Source of the DNA: Prochlorococcus marinus XMU1408
Lineage (GTDB): Bacteria; Cyanobacteriota; Cyanobacteriia; PCC-6307; Cyanobiaceae
Length of the DNA stretch: 64,000 nt
Reading direction: 5' to 3'
NCBI RefSeq assembly: GCF_003208055.1
Contig: NZ_QJUE01000002.1
Location: forward strand, 434,001-498,000
Notes under the pieces: generated by a model
Told to the model about the DNA's origin: nothing
The model's input: the letters and a program-made list of their open reading frames with translations, nothing else
Database searches by the model: none
In this document: positions 16,711-21,884 of the stretch, one piece after another
Position numbering within the stretch: the first letter of the stretch is position 1
Layout: each line of letters begins with the position of its first letter
Translations under genes and position numbers: made by a program

Positions 16711-17466
16711 ATGAAACCAAGACCTTGGAATAATATTAAAATAAATGAATCTAATGAACCTTTGGTTTCTATACCGAAGTCAATCTTTCGATTAACACCT
16801 CATCCTTATATGTCGTTAGGGGCTCCATATAGAGATGGAGCTGATCCATGGGTTTTACGTAAAAGTGTATTAAATAGATTACTCGAAGCGCAGAAATTTC
16901 TTTCAAAGAGCAATCCTCATTTGCAGTTAGCTTTGTTTGATGCTTGGAGACCTATTTCTGTCCAGAAATTCATGTTTGATTACACCATAAAAGAAACTTG
17001 TAAGTCTAGAGGGATTGATATTAATAATGATTCTGAAAATGCAAATATCGATAGAATCATCCAAGAGGTTGGCCGCTTTTGGGCTAAACCATCATTGAAT
17101 CCTTCTACACCTCCTCCACATAGTACTGGTGCTGCTATTGACCTTACTCTTGCTGATATGAATGGGAAACCTTTGGATCTTGGTGGAGAAATAGATTTCA
17201 TTGGAGCTAAATCAAGCCCTAGCTTTTATGAAAGTGAGTCTTTAAGGTTCCCTTGTTCAAAATATCAAGTTTTTCATAATAGAAGATTTCTTCTGTTCTC
17301 AGTTATGGAACAGGCAGGGTTTGTCCAACACCCAAATGAGTGGTGGCATTTTAGTTATGGAGATCAATTATGGTCTTGGTTAAAAAAGCAACGTAATGCT
17401 ATTTATGGAGCAGCATTTGAGGTGAGTAATGACATTACTTTCTCATTACCAAGTTTAGTCACATGA
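16711..17466 (+). CDS. VanX-like D-Ala-D-Ala dipeptidase (M15D)
   Basis: The 251-residue protein has the M15 zinc-peptidase residues. HSTGAAID gives His137 and Asp144, and EWWH gives catalytic Glu210 and ligand His213. Arg80, in FDAWRP, matches the transition-state arginine of VanX. The expected reaction is hydrolysis of D-Ala-D-Ala, for peptidoglycan recycling rather than vancomycin resistance, since no vanH or vanA partner is present. No signal peptide is seen, so it is probably cytoplasmic. Its 3' end overlaps the convergent sir gene by 64 bases. Confidence 0.85.
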   Translation: MKPRPWNNIKINESNEPLVSIPKSIFRLTPHPYMSLGAPYRDGADPWVLRKSVLNRLLEAQKFLSKSNPHLQLALFDAWRPISVQKFMFDYTIKETCKSRGIDINNDSENANIDRIIQEVGRFWAKPSLNPSTPPPHSTGAAIDLTLADMNGKPLDLGGEIDFIGAKSSPSFYESESLRFPCSKYQVFHNRRFLLFSVMEQAGFVQHPNEWWHFSYGDQLWSWLKKQRNAIYGAAFEVSNDITFSLPSLVT

Positions 17467-19202
17467 TCTCCAAGACTTAATGAAGTTCCCCTCTCTTTCC
17501 AGCTAAGGAATAAAGGCTCTAATGTTTTTTCTAATTCATTGAGAGACATTTTTTGTAGATATGGAGTTGCTAACCTATTCAAATTAGTACTACCTCCGAG
17601 CCAGAGTTGGTATTGATTTAAACCACTACCAACTAGAGCCAATTCTGCCATGTAAGGTCGAGCACATCCATTTGGGCAGCCTGTCACTCTAATTAAAATT
17701 GATTTATCTATATCTAGCTTTTTTAATTGATTATTTATACGATCTATAAGTTCAGGTAGAAATCTCTCTGCTTCTGTCATTGCAAGTCCACATAAGGGAA
17801 GGGCAGGGCAGGCTAGGGCATGTCTTGACAATGGTTCAGGAAAACCTGGATTTGAAAATCCTATATTGCATAGATCTTTGTTGACACTGGATTTTTGATA
17901 ATTACCAATATTGCACAATAATAGATCTTGGTTAGGAGTTAAACGTACATCCAATGCATATTTTTCAACTATATTTCTGAGCTCTTTTTTTACTTTCCCT
18001 GTAAGCCTACCTGACAATAGTGGTAGCCCAACAAACCATAATTTTTCAGATTGTTGATGCCATCCTAGATAATCTTCAAGTATTGTGACACCTTCATCCT
18101 TTATGGGAGCAATTTTTTTTGTAAAGTACTTATTAGTTAATTGTTTCTTGAACCAGGCAACACCCATATCATGCAAAACATATTTTAGTCTTGAGTGCCT
18201 TCTCGTTTTCCTATCTCCATAATCTCTTTGAAGAGCGAGAATAGATTGTACAAGTTCTAAAATATCCTTCCCTTTCACATAACCAATAGGATCTGCTATC
18301 CTTGCAAATGTGCTATCTAAGTTATGAGTCCTACCCATACCTCCTCCAACGTAGACATTACATCCTTCTAAAACCCCTTTTCTATTTGTAAATGTTACAA
18401 GACCTATATCATGAGTTAAGATATCTACAGAGTTGTCTCCTGGAACTGTGGTTGCACATTTAAATTTTCTTGGTAAGTAGGTCGATCCATATAAAGGCTC
18501 TTTGTTGTCCCCGCTAAAAACACCCGGATTTAGTTGTTTTTTTCTATTCCTCTTGACTTCGGGGGATGGTTTGATTGCATATTTTAATTCACCATCAACC
18601 CATAGATCTAGATAAGTGATTTCTGCTTGTTTAGGTGATAAAACATCTGCAATGTCATTTGCCAATTTCCTCGCAGCAGGATAAGAACCTTTTTCATATG
18701 GTGCAGCTGGAGCCATAACATTTCTATTGATATCTCCACATGCAGCGAGGGTTGAGCCCATTGATTTAACTATTGTTTCGATAACTTCTTTTAAATTTTC
18801 TTTCTTAATTCCATGCATTTGAAAACATTGACGAGTGGTCGCTCTAAGTGTTTTATTTCCTAATTGATCAGAAAGATCATCCAATGCTACGAAAAGTGGT
18901 CCCGGAACAAAACCCGCTGGATTCCTAAGCCTCAGCATCATTTGCCAATCTTTGCCTGTTCCTCCTCTTTTTCTATGCTCGCGATCATCTTGTTGATAAC
19001 TACCATGAAATTTCAAAAGTTGAACTGCATCGTTTGTGAAGTGATCACTTTCATTGATTAATTCAGTTAGAAGGGGTTCATTTAAGTAATTACTATCTGC
19101 TTTAAATTGTTCAAATTTTGCTCGAGGAGAGTTATTCGCTATGCAAGGTGATGAAACAGTTTTTTCTATTTCTGCATCGCTTTCTTTATCTTCAAAATTC
19201 AT
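17403..19202 (-). CDS. sir: Ferredoxin-sulfite reductase
   Basis: Sir reduces sulfite to sulfide with six ferredoxin electrons for cysteine synthesis. From ATG 19202 the product is 599 residues, close to the usual length. Siroheme/4Fe-4S ligands are present as CPALPLC (C465, C471) and CPNGC (C509, C513). The substrate-binding arginine segment RATTRQCFQMHG is also intact. Family homology begins about 26 residues after this ATG. The frame stays open upstream to an ATG at 19574, which would add 124 residues unlike any sulfite reductase (listed separately). Which start is used cannot be settled from sequence alone. Confidence 0.93.
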   Translation of the reverse strand: MNFEDKESDAEIEKTVSSPCIANNSPRAKFEQFKADSNYLNEPLLTELINESDHFTNDAVQLLKFHGSYQQDDREHRKRGGTGKDWQMMLRLRNPAGFVPGPLFVALDDLSDQLGNKTLRATTRQCFQMHGIKKENLKEVIETIVKSMGSTLAACGDINRNVMAPAAPYEKGSYPAARKLANDIADVLSPKQAEITYLDLWVDGELKYAIKPSPEVKRNRKKQLNPGVFSGDNKEPLYGSTYLPRKFKCATTVPGDNSVDILTHDIGLVTFTNRKGVLEGCNVYVGGGMGRTHNLDSTFARIADPIGYVKGKDILELVQSILALQRDYGDRKTRRHSRLKYVLHDMGVAWFKKQLTNKYFTKKIAPIKDEGVTILEDYLGWHQQSEKLWFVGLPLLSGRLTGKVKKELRNIVEKYALDVRLTPNQDLLLCNIGNYQKSSVNKDLCNIGFSNPGFPEPLSRHALACPALPLCGLAMTEAERFLPELIDRINNQLKKLDIDKSILIRVTGCPNGCARPYMAELALVGSGLNQYQLWLGGSTNLNRLATPYLQKMSLNELEKTLEPLFLSWKERGTSLSLGDHVTKLGNEKVMSLLTSNAAP

Positions 19203-19574
19203 CAAAGCTTCAATAGCTCCATTACTAAAACCTGCATTTTTTAGGTCTTTTTGAATATTTTTCGGAGATTCTTTTAAATAGGTATTTTTTACTGCTTCGA
19301 CTCTTATTTCCTTTGGCAATGATTCGTTGATCTTTATTGCTTCTTCTTCCCTTAGCTTTTCTTCGAATTTTTGTTGAATAGCTATTTCTGCTGAACTTAT
19401 ATTTTTTTCAGCTTCTTTTCTAGTGTTGCCTATTTTTTTCACTACATCACAAGTTCCAAAAGCGTCTCTTAATTTACCTCTTGGTACGGCAACTCTGAGA
19501 TAAAAACCTGATCTCCCTGGTATTTTTATGATCTTAGGCAAATGGTACCTACAACGGTACCTACACTGTATCAT
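19203..19574 (-). pseudogene. Integrase arm-binding-like segment in frame with sir
   Basis: This 124-codon open stretch is continuous with sir and starts at its own ATG. Residues about 12-75 read like the N-terminal DNA-binding domain of tyrosine recombinases (DUF6538-type): HLPKI, then FYLRVAVPRGKLRDAFG, then KKIGNTRKEAEKN, followed by a charged helix. The rest, to residue 124, is a charged linker. No core or catalytic recombinase domain follows; sulfite reductase does. It may be an integrase remnant fused to sir, or a translated extension. The assignment rests on my pattern recognition, without a search. Confidence 0.5.
19544..19567. repeat. 12-base tandem duplication at the start of the sir extension
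   Basis: Two copies of GGTACCTACA occur at 19544-19553 and 19556-19565, a 12-base period, each beginning with the palindrome GGTACC. On the minus strand they encode the repeated Cys-Arg-Tyr near residues 4-10 of the extension. This could be a small duplication or an old recombination footprint. Confidence 0.8.
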
Positions 19575-19721
19575 TTTTCATCTTGACTAGTGTCTAATTG
19601 TTCAAATGAAATTATCCTTGATCAAGAATAAATAAAGCGAGCGTTAGATTCTTTCTAGGACACAGAATGTAGATGTTATTCAAATTTAGATCTAATCTTT
19701 ATAAGAACATAGGGAACTTTT

Positions 19722-21884
19722 TTGTCTACTTACCTTTTAGAAATTGGGACTGAGGAACTTCCAGCTGATTTGGCTGAATCTGTTATTTCTCAGCTTGAGT
19801 TAAATGTAAATAATGACTTGAACAATAATAAAATAAAATTTAGTGAAATAAGAGTTACTACTACTCCTAGAAGAATTGCATTGATAATTGAAGGGATTGC
19901 TCCTTTCTCTGAAGATAATGTTGAGGAATGTAAAGGTCCTCCTGTCTCCCAAGCTTTTTGTGATGGAAAACCTACAAAAGCAGCAATCGGTTTTGCCAAA
20001 AGATTTGATCTTCCTCCTGAAAAATTAGAGATAAAAGAAACACTAAAGGGCGTATTTGTTTTTGCAAAATTAATTGAAAAAGGCAAGCCAGTTGTTAGTT
20101 TGTTAGCTGATTGTTTACCTGGATGGATCAGTAAAATTCAAGGAAGAAGGTTTATGAGATGGGGAGAGGGTGATTTTCGCTTTTCAAGGCCTATTCGTTG
20201 GATTGTTTCTTTGCTTGATTCAGAAGTCTTACCTTTTGAAATTTCAGGATGTGATCCTGAAATAGAAATTGGCAATATTTCAAGACCTCATAGGTTATGT
20301 GGATCAGAATTTCAAATAAAGGATGCGAAAACTTATGTTGATCAATTACGAGATGTTGGTGTCATTGTTGATAGGTGCACTCGCCTTTCTTGTGTAAATG
20401 ACTTAGTTCTTAATCATGAATTAAATAATAAGTTTAAGCCAGATTTGTCTGATGAACTTTTAAATGAGCTGACAGATTTAGTCGAGTCTCCTCTACTCGT
20501 GCATGGGAGATTTGATGAATCCTTTCTCGACTTACCCCCTGAGGTTTTATCCACTGTAATGAAGGTTCATCAAAGATACATTCCTTTATACAAGGAAAAT
20601 GCTGATTTTGATCCATTAGCGCTTGATTCTAGAAATGTTTTACTGCCTAGCTTTTTGTGTATTAGTAATGGATTATCTTCAGCAAGAGAAAATATTATTT
20701 TAGGGAATGAAAAGGTACTTAAGGCAAGATTTTCAGATGCTTCATTTTTTATAAAATCAGATTTATTGATTAATAGCTCATCACGAATTAATAAATTAAA
20801 AAATGTAACTTTTGCAGAAGGATTAGGATCTTTATATGATCGTGTAGACAGAATAAAATGGCTAACTAAATTATTAACAATAAAACTTAAATTTGATCAA
20901 GACGATATTGAAAAATCTATTAAAGTTGCACATTTTTCTAAACATGATTTAGTTAGTAATATGGTCGATGAATTTCCTGAGTTGCAAGGAATTATTGGAT
21001 CTAAGTACTTATTGCATGAGGGTGAATCAAGAGATGTATGCCTTGGGGTTTTAGAACACTATAAACCAAAAGGAACTGCAGACTCTCTTCCCTCAAATAA
21101 TCTTGGCAATGTTGTTTCATTAGCCGAGCGTTTTGAATTGCTTTTTAGTATTTTTGCTAGGGGTGAAAGGCCTACTGGCTCATCTGATCCCTATGCTTTG
21201 AGAAGAGCAGCAAATGGAATATTATTAATTTTGTGGGATCAAGGTTGGCAATTAAATATCAATGAAATAATTAAAGATTCACTAATATATTGGAAAGAAA
21301 TATTTCCTAATATTCCTTTTGATATTAATGTACTATCTGCTGACCTAATCGAATTATTTCGTCAAAGAATCAGTAGTTTACTAGAGGAGAAAGAGATAGA
21401 TTCTGATGTTATTCAGGCAATTGCCGGTGATTCAACCCCAACATCAAAATTGTTGGGTGACTCTACAGATGTTGATTTTCGTGCTTCATTATTAATGGAT
21501 ATGAGGAAAAATAATAAACTTAACTTGTTGCAAGCTGTTGTGACTCGTGCATCTAAATTGGTAGCTAAAACCTCTATTTCTAAAGATGTAATAGATCCTT
21601 CGGACTTTGTTGATAAGTCACTATTTGAGAAAGATAGTGAACTTCAAATGTTTAATGTTCTGGAGAAATTAAAACCTCTATCTATAAATGGTGATCATAC
21701 TAAATATAAGTTATTAGCTGATGGTCTCGTCTCAAGTGCTGAAATTTTATCCAATTTTTTTGATGGTGAAGGAAGTGTTATGGTTATGACAGATAATCTT
21801 AGCCTTAGAAATAATAGACTTAATCTATTATCTATCCTTAGAAATCAATCTTTAATTATTGCTGACTTCAGCAAACTCAGATAG
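19722..21884 (+). CDS. glyS: Glycyl-tRNA synthetase beta subunit
   Basis: GlyS is the tRNA-recognition subunit of the alpha2beta2 bacterial glycyl-tRNA synthetase. The 720-residue protein starts STYLLEIGTEELPA, the family signature, from a TTG at 19722. It contains the HD-like domain region, and FARGERPTGSSDPYALRRAANGI matches the conserved C-terminal DALR-proximal motif. The alpha subunit gene is not in this window. It diverges from sir across a 147-base gap and converges on chlP. Confidence 0.96.
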   Translation: MSTYLLEIGTEELPADLAESVISQLELNVNNDLNNNKIKFSEIRVTTTPRRIALIIEGIAPFSEDNVEECKGPPVSQAFCDGKPTKAAIGFAKRFDLPPEKLEIKETLKGVFVFAKLIEKGKPVVSLLADCLPGWISKIQGRRFMRWGEGDFRFSRPIRWIVSLLDSEVLPFEISGCDPEIEIGNISRPHRLCGSEFQIKDAKTYVDQLRDVGVIVDRCTRLSCVNDLVLNHELNNKFKPDLSDELLNELTDLVESPLLVHGRFDESFLDLPPEVLSTVMKVHQRYIPLYKENADFDPLALDSRNVLLPSFLCISNGLSSARENIILGNEKVLKARFSDASFFIKSDLLINSSSRINKLKNVTFAEGLGSLYDRVDRIKWLTKLLTIKLKFDQDDIEKSIKVAHFSKHDLVSNMVDEFPELQGIIGSKYLLHEGESRDVCLGVLEHYKPKGTADSLPSNNLGNVVSLAERFELLFSIFARGERPTGSSDPYALRRAANGILLILWDQGWQLNINEIIKDSLIYWKEIFPNIPFDINVLSADLIELFRQRISSLLEEKEIDSDVIQAIAGDSTPTSKLLGDSTDVDFRASLLMDMRKNNKLNLLQAVVTRASKLVAKTSISKDVIDPSDFVDKSLFEKDSELQMFNVLEKLKPLSINGDHTKYKLLADGLVSSAEILSNFFDGEGSVMVMTDNLSLRNNRLNLLSILRNQSLIIADFSKLR

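Follow-up and report, generated by a model that had tools for sequence, protein, structure and literature searches.

Capture of a tyrosine recombinase N-terminal domain by the sulfite reductase of a Prochlorococcus group, with paired repeats as its putative binding sites

Results and Discussion

The sulfite reductase gene (sir) of Prochlorococcus marinus XMU1408 encodes a ferredoxin-dependent enzyme whose N-terminus is extended by a domain related to that of tyrosine recombinases, and its start codon is directly preceded by two copies of a short repeat. We consider it fairly probable that the self-binding module of a recombinase was captured whole, and that the fused sulfite reductase binds DNA at the start of its gene, probably with repression of its own transcription as the result. 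The capture itself is based on homology, in-frame fusion, conservation and a repeat design held in common with related recombinase genes. The window referred to throughout is the whole 64,000-nucleotide stretch of the genome that was analysed, and positions are those of the window unless a locus is named.

The fused gene and its start codon

The frame described by the first-pass annotation (17403-19574 on the reverse strand) is open over 723 codons from its ATG and contains the motifs that had been quoted from it, but the choice of this ATG, at 19574, as the start is probably wrong. Among 30 aligned same-genus rows, 28 have TTG as the codon at 19541 and two have GTG; in 24 rows a TAG lying within the repeats shuts the frame upstream of this codon, and just five, the window among them, have the ATG in frame. 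The conserved start is thus the TTG at 19541, giving a protein of 712 residues. The codon at the matching position in G082, a genome of another genus of the same family, is also TTG. Read from the conserved TTG, the fused gene occupies 17403..19541 (-), that is 712 codons plus stop, and comprises three segments: the recombinase-derived N-terminal domain (residues 1-62; 19356..19541, -), made of strand-strand-helix-strand and the start of a long helix, as delimited by homology, dN/dS and the structural model; the remainder of the long helix and a helix pair (residues 63-118; 19188..19355, -), less conserved and aligning with recombinases to about residue 113; and the sulfite reductase part (residues 138-712; 17406..19130, -).

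The family of the enzyme part is established by its match to TIGR02042, the ferredoxin-dependent sulfite reductase, which spans residues 148-717 (ATG numbering) and at 740.2 bits passes the curated cut-off of 731.5. The motifs ACPALPLC and TGCPNGC, which we take to be the siroheme/[4Fe-4S] ligand motifs, can be read in it. Judged by its sequence, the enzyme part is an ordinary ferredoxin-dependent sulfite reductase with an extra domain, and enzyme activity is predicted. The genome holds one full sulfite reductase, the sole other match being 28% identical.

The extension might be an artefact of annotation, left unmade if translation began internally, after the domain, and the methionine at residue 115 of the window protein is a candidate for such a start. 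This we regard as very improbable, since that methionine is replaced in L026, L029, L030 and L062, the TTG/GTG start is kept in all 30 rows, and the N-terminal domain is under purifying selection (see below).

Identity of the N-terminal extension

The added part had been said to resemble the N-terminus of tyrosine recombinases, and this resemblance has proved to be homology with the N-terminal domain of marine picocyanobacterial tyrosine recombinases: when a profile made only from the N-termini of fused sir genes was compared with one made only from recombinases, the two aligned over columns 1-113 with 99.7% probability and an E-value of 4.1e-25. As the alignment spans these columns, the captured piece takes in the domain together with the long helix and the helices after it. 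A six-frame search with the first 150 residues gave matches in 50 of 400 family genomes. Within the genus the top match of each genome is the same fused frame, one genome having an additional frame of 424 aa. Of the 20 matches outside the genus, nine are in frames 437-466 aa long and eight in shorter ones of 111-295 aa, two are Rieske fusions (440 and 450 aa), and one is a fused sulfite reductase of 738 aa (G082); a stop inside the matched part is seen in three of the 21 frames outside or beside the fused ones of the genus. Against recombinase-size frames of other genera the window N-terminus gives E-values down to 3.4e-12, and the N-terminal domain of the recombinase at L065 is 53% identical to it over a 54-residue stretch. 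These long frames read as tyrosine recombinases, and all eight that were given to Pfam match PF00589, seven of them above the gathering score. The window protein has no match to this catalytic domain, which rules it out as a tyrosine recombinase.

The guess that the extension belongs with DUF6538 (PF20172) is borne out only by way of the recombinase relatives and fails for the window protein taken alone. Three recombinases (L063, L066 and L068) match this family at E-values of 2.3e-5 to 1e-4, with 22.3-24.4 bits against a Pfam gathering score of 27 bits and thus below it, and with a limit of E 0.1 the family is matched by 12 of the 31 aligned members, the best of them at 3.7e-6. The window N-terminus has no direct match in Pfam, DUF6538 included, and under Pfam's own gathering rule the protein is ruled out as a member; nor did the extension alone give anything significant against Pfam, NCBIfam or PHROGs. 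The commonest weak Pfam match among the aligned members is DUF4473 (14 of 31, best E 0.0018), which covers the second helix segment in the window protein and which we do not consider meaningful.

No viral carrier of the domain has been identified, as the phage records returned just two Sulfolobus virus matches at E 0.6 and the viral contigs scanned contained no relative of it. A broken copy of a recombinase N-terminal domain, with stop codons, was observed at G346:C4:18136-18365 (in L159).

Predicted structure

Integrase arm-binding domains have the order strand-strand-helix-strand-long helix. The same order is predicted by AlphaFold2 for the extension (31 aligned rows); as far as residue 70 the mean pLDDT, taken over blocks of ten residues, is 88-95, and it is low beyond that point. 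In structural comparison with VIA-align, the domain matches 3rmp_C, a P4-like integrase involved in attP recognition, with Z 3.5 and an rmsd of 3.5 over 54 residues, a score tied with those of unrelated chains. Foldseek gave no match at E up to 0.001 and a sequence search of solved structures nothing credible, so that these matches fall short of proving an arm-binding fold. The model of the full-length fused protein is poor (mean pLDDT 63.3), and we base no conclusion on it.

Distribution, origin and selection

The complete fused gene is present, uninterrupted by stops, in 29 of 41 same-genus genomes. The remaining 12 comprise one in which sir is split over two contigs, one in which a contig edge leaves just a C-terminal fragment, and ten with no sir match, all of which are less than 90% complete; all 17 genomes of the genus that are at least 90% complete have sir, the split one included. 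An unfused sir was not seen in any of the 41. A scan of named genomes returned 24 loci, all from Prochlorococcus single-cell genomes, including AG-404-P15, which is of the G082 type.

Among the matches listed, the reductase is present in at least 233 of 251 family genomes, and in a class-wide sample the domain was found in four of 291 genomes, all from this family. Two domain searches over 400 family genomes gave, beyond the genus and G082, no match in a frame longer than 482 aa, a length that leaves no room for a fused reductase. In nine unfused sir loci of other genera the gene has no extension and starts shortly before the SPCIAN-type residues. The divergent neighbour in the window (19722..21884, +), which we name glyS from its family, adjoins sir in these nine loci and in G082 as well. 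The outcome that the first-pass annotation had named as speaking against its reading, namely the lack of a recombinase match together with an extension general to sulfite reductases, has thus not occurred.

A tree of the reductase part was computed from 12 fused rows (11 of the 29 same-genus genes, plus L062 from another genus) and nine unfused genes. It places the fused genes on one side of a branch with support 92/96, below the strongest class, and a single origin of the fusion is likely on this topology. Selection on the fused gene was analysed over 406 pairs from the 29 genes, a set that leaves out L041 (at a contig end) and L062 (from the other genus). The dN/dS ratio is 0.045 for residues 8-62 and 0.155 for residues 63-137; the reductase has a ratio of 0.075, or of 0.039 if just its first 137 residues are counted. 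The N-terminal domain is under strong purifying selection. The kept frame, the kept start and the kept amino acids support the earlier proposal of an in-frame capture whose fused product is really made, and in-frame capture of the 5' part of a recombinase gene is well supported by these sequence comparisons.

Paired repeats before the start codon

In all 30 same-genus rows GTAGGTACC occurs twice directly before the start, at a spacing of exactly 12 bp and with a variable spacer, and for each copy a single row has one base different. The two copies of the window, both TGTAGGTACC, lie at 19556..19565 (-) and at 19544..19553 (-), the latter just ahead of the start codon, and we propose them as binding sites. 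They are preceded by a conserved block, AAAATGATACAG (19566..19577, -), which holds the ATG discussed above and is a possible -10 element; the ten columns GATACAGTGT of this block have a pairwise identity of 98.7% over the 30 rows. In the same rows pairwise identity reaches 99.3% in the repeat columns, and is 82% in the spacer and 81% on average in the 148 columns upstream. G082 carries GTTGGTACC twice at the same 12-bp spacing.

Both occurrences of TGTAGGTACC in its own genome are those before sir, and a reversed control pattern occurs twice as well: its rarity therefore adds little, and the argument rests on position and conservation. When up to two mismatches were allowed, 10 of the 13 same-genus genomes searched had the repeat pair, once each, and seven other genomes had none; the three same-genus genomes that have no pair are among those with no sir match. 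The reversed control gave three matches in the same 20 genomes. As no consensus sigma-70 promoter was found upstream of sir, where the repeats lie with respect to the transcription start is only inferred. We do not claim that the block before the repeats is an old sir promoter, joined to the captured piece where the former start codon stood, and dropped this reading because 26 of 27 local alignments (three fused rows against nine unfused upstream regions) gave z below 2.5, and one gave 3.8.

The same repeat design in recombinase genes

Genes bearing the domain were scanned from -40 to +10 of the start for 9-base direct repeats with at least 8 of 9 matches, a spacing of 9-16 being allowed; L078, L158, L159 and L160, in which the motif used to place the start was not found, were left out. 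Repeats at this threshold occur in 20 of 30 genes, the rows being partly close relatives, and every pair is spaced 12 or 13 bp. They are distributed as 15 of 24 non-fusion rows, four of four sir rows and one of two Rieske rows; the other ten genes have no threshold repeat within this interval. Control windows reached the threshold in 8 of 116 cases upstream and in 8 of 90 downstream. The repeats of the recombinases vary in sequence (TGGTAGGAC, TGGTCCTGC, GTTGGAACC and TGTCAGTCA), and L065, which has the domain nearest to that of the window among the recombinases compared, carries TTGTAGGTAC. Over the 20 rows with a repeat, partly close relatives, similarity of the repeats tracks similarity of the domains (Mantel r 0.57, p 0.0002), as expected if the domain reads the repeats.

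These results bear on two other explanations. In the first, the domain would be kept for general tethering of sulfite reductase to DNA or the nucleoid and not for self-regulation, in analogy to the plant plastid enzyme (DCP68), which is reported to bind and compact DNA and to lower transcription in vitro (PMC4154389). Conservation of the domain agrees with such a role, but it leaves unexplained why all 30 rows have two exact repeats, always equally spaced, before the start, and why recombinase genes have the matching repeat design, and we regard it as unlikely. The plastid parallel may be a rival or an addition to self-binding and is, in our case, speculation by analogy and not evidence. In the second, the repeats would act in the RNA, a GGUACC-N6-GGUACC hairpin before the TTG controlling translation, and the domain would be kept for solubility or as an RNA-binding autoregulator. 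Such a hairpin is indeed predicted for the window, at -10.9 kcal/mol, and for G082; folding is somewhat better than that of shuffled sequences in these two (z -1.69 and -2.10, respectively) and in L079 (z -1.56). This does not hold for the other five of six recombinase or Rieske genes, with z values of -0.30 (L066), -0.35 (L063), 0.81 (L069), -0.02 (L073) and 0.15 (L077), and the feature common to the genes is a direct repeat at 12-13 bp; moreover, the GTA beyond the palindrome is also conserved, with one T variant per copy. The hairpin is a weaker explanation than a domain that reads the repeats, and has in our judgement a low probability.

Inspection by eye further revealed that a block ATCGACCTG, or a near variant of it, with CCA soon after, lies about 60-150 bp before many recombinase starts (L063, L064, L066, L067, L068, L069, L074, L076 and L077). 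It gave no Rfam match in the seven of these nine loci searched and no tRNA in the eight searched, and is perhaps an attachment or arm region. L074 also has a 6S RNA gene (L074:31-215, +), some 2.2 kb away from a recombinase frame that is truncated.

A second capture by a Rieske oxygenase

The same N-terminal domain is found on a Rieske/ring-hydroxylating oxygenase in two genomes of another genus, G365 (L073:2784-4133, +) and G384 (L075:1089-2408, -), the two proteins being 61% identical across almost their full length. Paired repeats have been retained ahead of the start in both, exact in one gene and with 7 of 9 matches at spacing 12 in the other. Such fusions are infrequent, with two cases in 400 family genomes and one in the 151 sampled in that genus. 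From these sequences, the module is attached to at least two enzymes. When translations are judged by eye, the Rieske fusions adjoin ketoacyl-synthase-like and polysaccharide-type frames.

The second capture is also relevant to the view that the fusion is a frozen accident, the captured domain now being structurally needed (for folding or ferredoxin contact) with no role on DNA, and the repeats being kept as parts of the promoter. DNA binding by the domain is indeed a prediction, conservation is limited to the promoter-proximal DNA and the domain, and the linker is variable, with its dN/dS of 0.155. A domain at 0.045 beside repeats of the type found in its recombinase relatives would nevertheless be unexpected under a frozen accident, as would a second enzyme that retains both domain and repeats, and we find this account improbable. 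More tentatively, and with slightly less than even confidence, we propose that marine picocyanobacterial recombinase genes carry a portable self-control module, captured by at least two unrelated iron-sulfur enzymes (sulfite reductase and Rieske oxygenase), each of which would thereby form a negative feedback loop of a single gene, with the state of its cofactor or substrate as a possible signal.

Proposed mechanism and relation to known systems

Recombinase N-terminal domains of this sort bind short arm-type sites. We propose that sir captured, in frame and ahead of its coding region, the 5' end of a tyrosine recombinase gene, made up of the paired repeats, the start codon and the N-terminal DNA-binding domain, and that this took place in a forebear of this Prochlorococcus group. 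The captured sites would now sit with the conserved block, a possible -10 element, on one side and the start codon on the other. The fused sulfite reductase would bind the two repeats at its own gene start, and binding would lower sir transcription when the enzyme is plentiful, possibly in connection with the state of the enzyme or the sulfur supply. We infer DNA binding and repression from the sequence features described above.

Compared with marine picocyanobacterial tyrosine recombinases that have a DUF6538-like N-terminus, the window protein and gene have the same N-terminal domain and the same paired repeats 12-13 bp apart before the start, but sulfite reductase takes the place of the catalytic PF00589 domain. 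Compared with ferredoxin-dependent sulfite reductases (TIGR02042), the enzyme part is complete and lies in the same place beside glyS, but the nine unfused loci of other genera lack the domain. PutA and BirA of E. coli are enzymes with an attached DNA-binding domain by which they repress the genes that encode them, and the fused sulfite reductase would likewise unite a catalytic and a DNA-binding part in one chain, its binding function being predicted. To our knowledge, the DNA-binding domains of the PutA/BirA type are not recombinase domains and none was captured with its sites from a mobile element; we also know of no recombinase-type domain in the plant plastid sulfite reductase. By its sequence, the fused protein would belong with these enzymes that have an attached DNA-binding domain, here recombinase-derived and captured along with its sites. 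A precedent for self-binding is the KplE1 integrase IntS, which binds its own gene in the vicinity of the -10 box and represses it, autoregulation being predicted for most tRNA-associated integrase genes (PMC2951348). The fused reductase would resemble it in being a DNA-binding protein whose sites lie where its own gene starts; it differs in that IntS is a recombinase with measured repression, and ours is a metabolic enzyme for which repression is predicted. Other partial parallels are BzdR, an enzyme-derived regulator with a catalytic part and a DNA-binding part in a single chain (PMC3602430), and the plastid enzyme DCP68, likewise a sulfite reductase touching DNA, which differs in compacting it (PMC4154389). 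Among the matches listed in the open PMC literature (titles and starts of abstracts), we have found no report of a fusion between sulfite reductase and a recombinase domain.

If the proposed mechanism is correct, a metabolic gene would have gained its own regulator in one step, and specificity need not evolve anew because the DNA-binding domain of the mobile element and its sites move together. The gene affected is the sole full sulfite reductase seen in the genome of an abundant ocean phototroph, of a lineage that has few transcription factors. Consisting of a single protein and a single locus with two 9-bp sites, it would offer a small and clean system for the question of how enzymes become regulators.

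Two minor observations concern the flanks of the gene. At its 3' end, sir overlaps a convergent open reading frame (16711-17466, +) by 64 bp (17403-17466). Between glyS and sir, a second conserved block is found at 19641-19690, with a pairwise identity of about 88-96% per ten columns over the 30 rows, and it is probably a regulatory site of one or the other gene.
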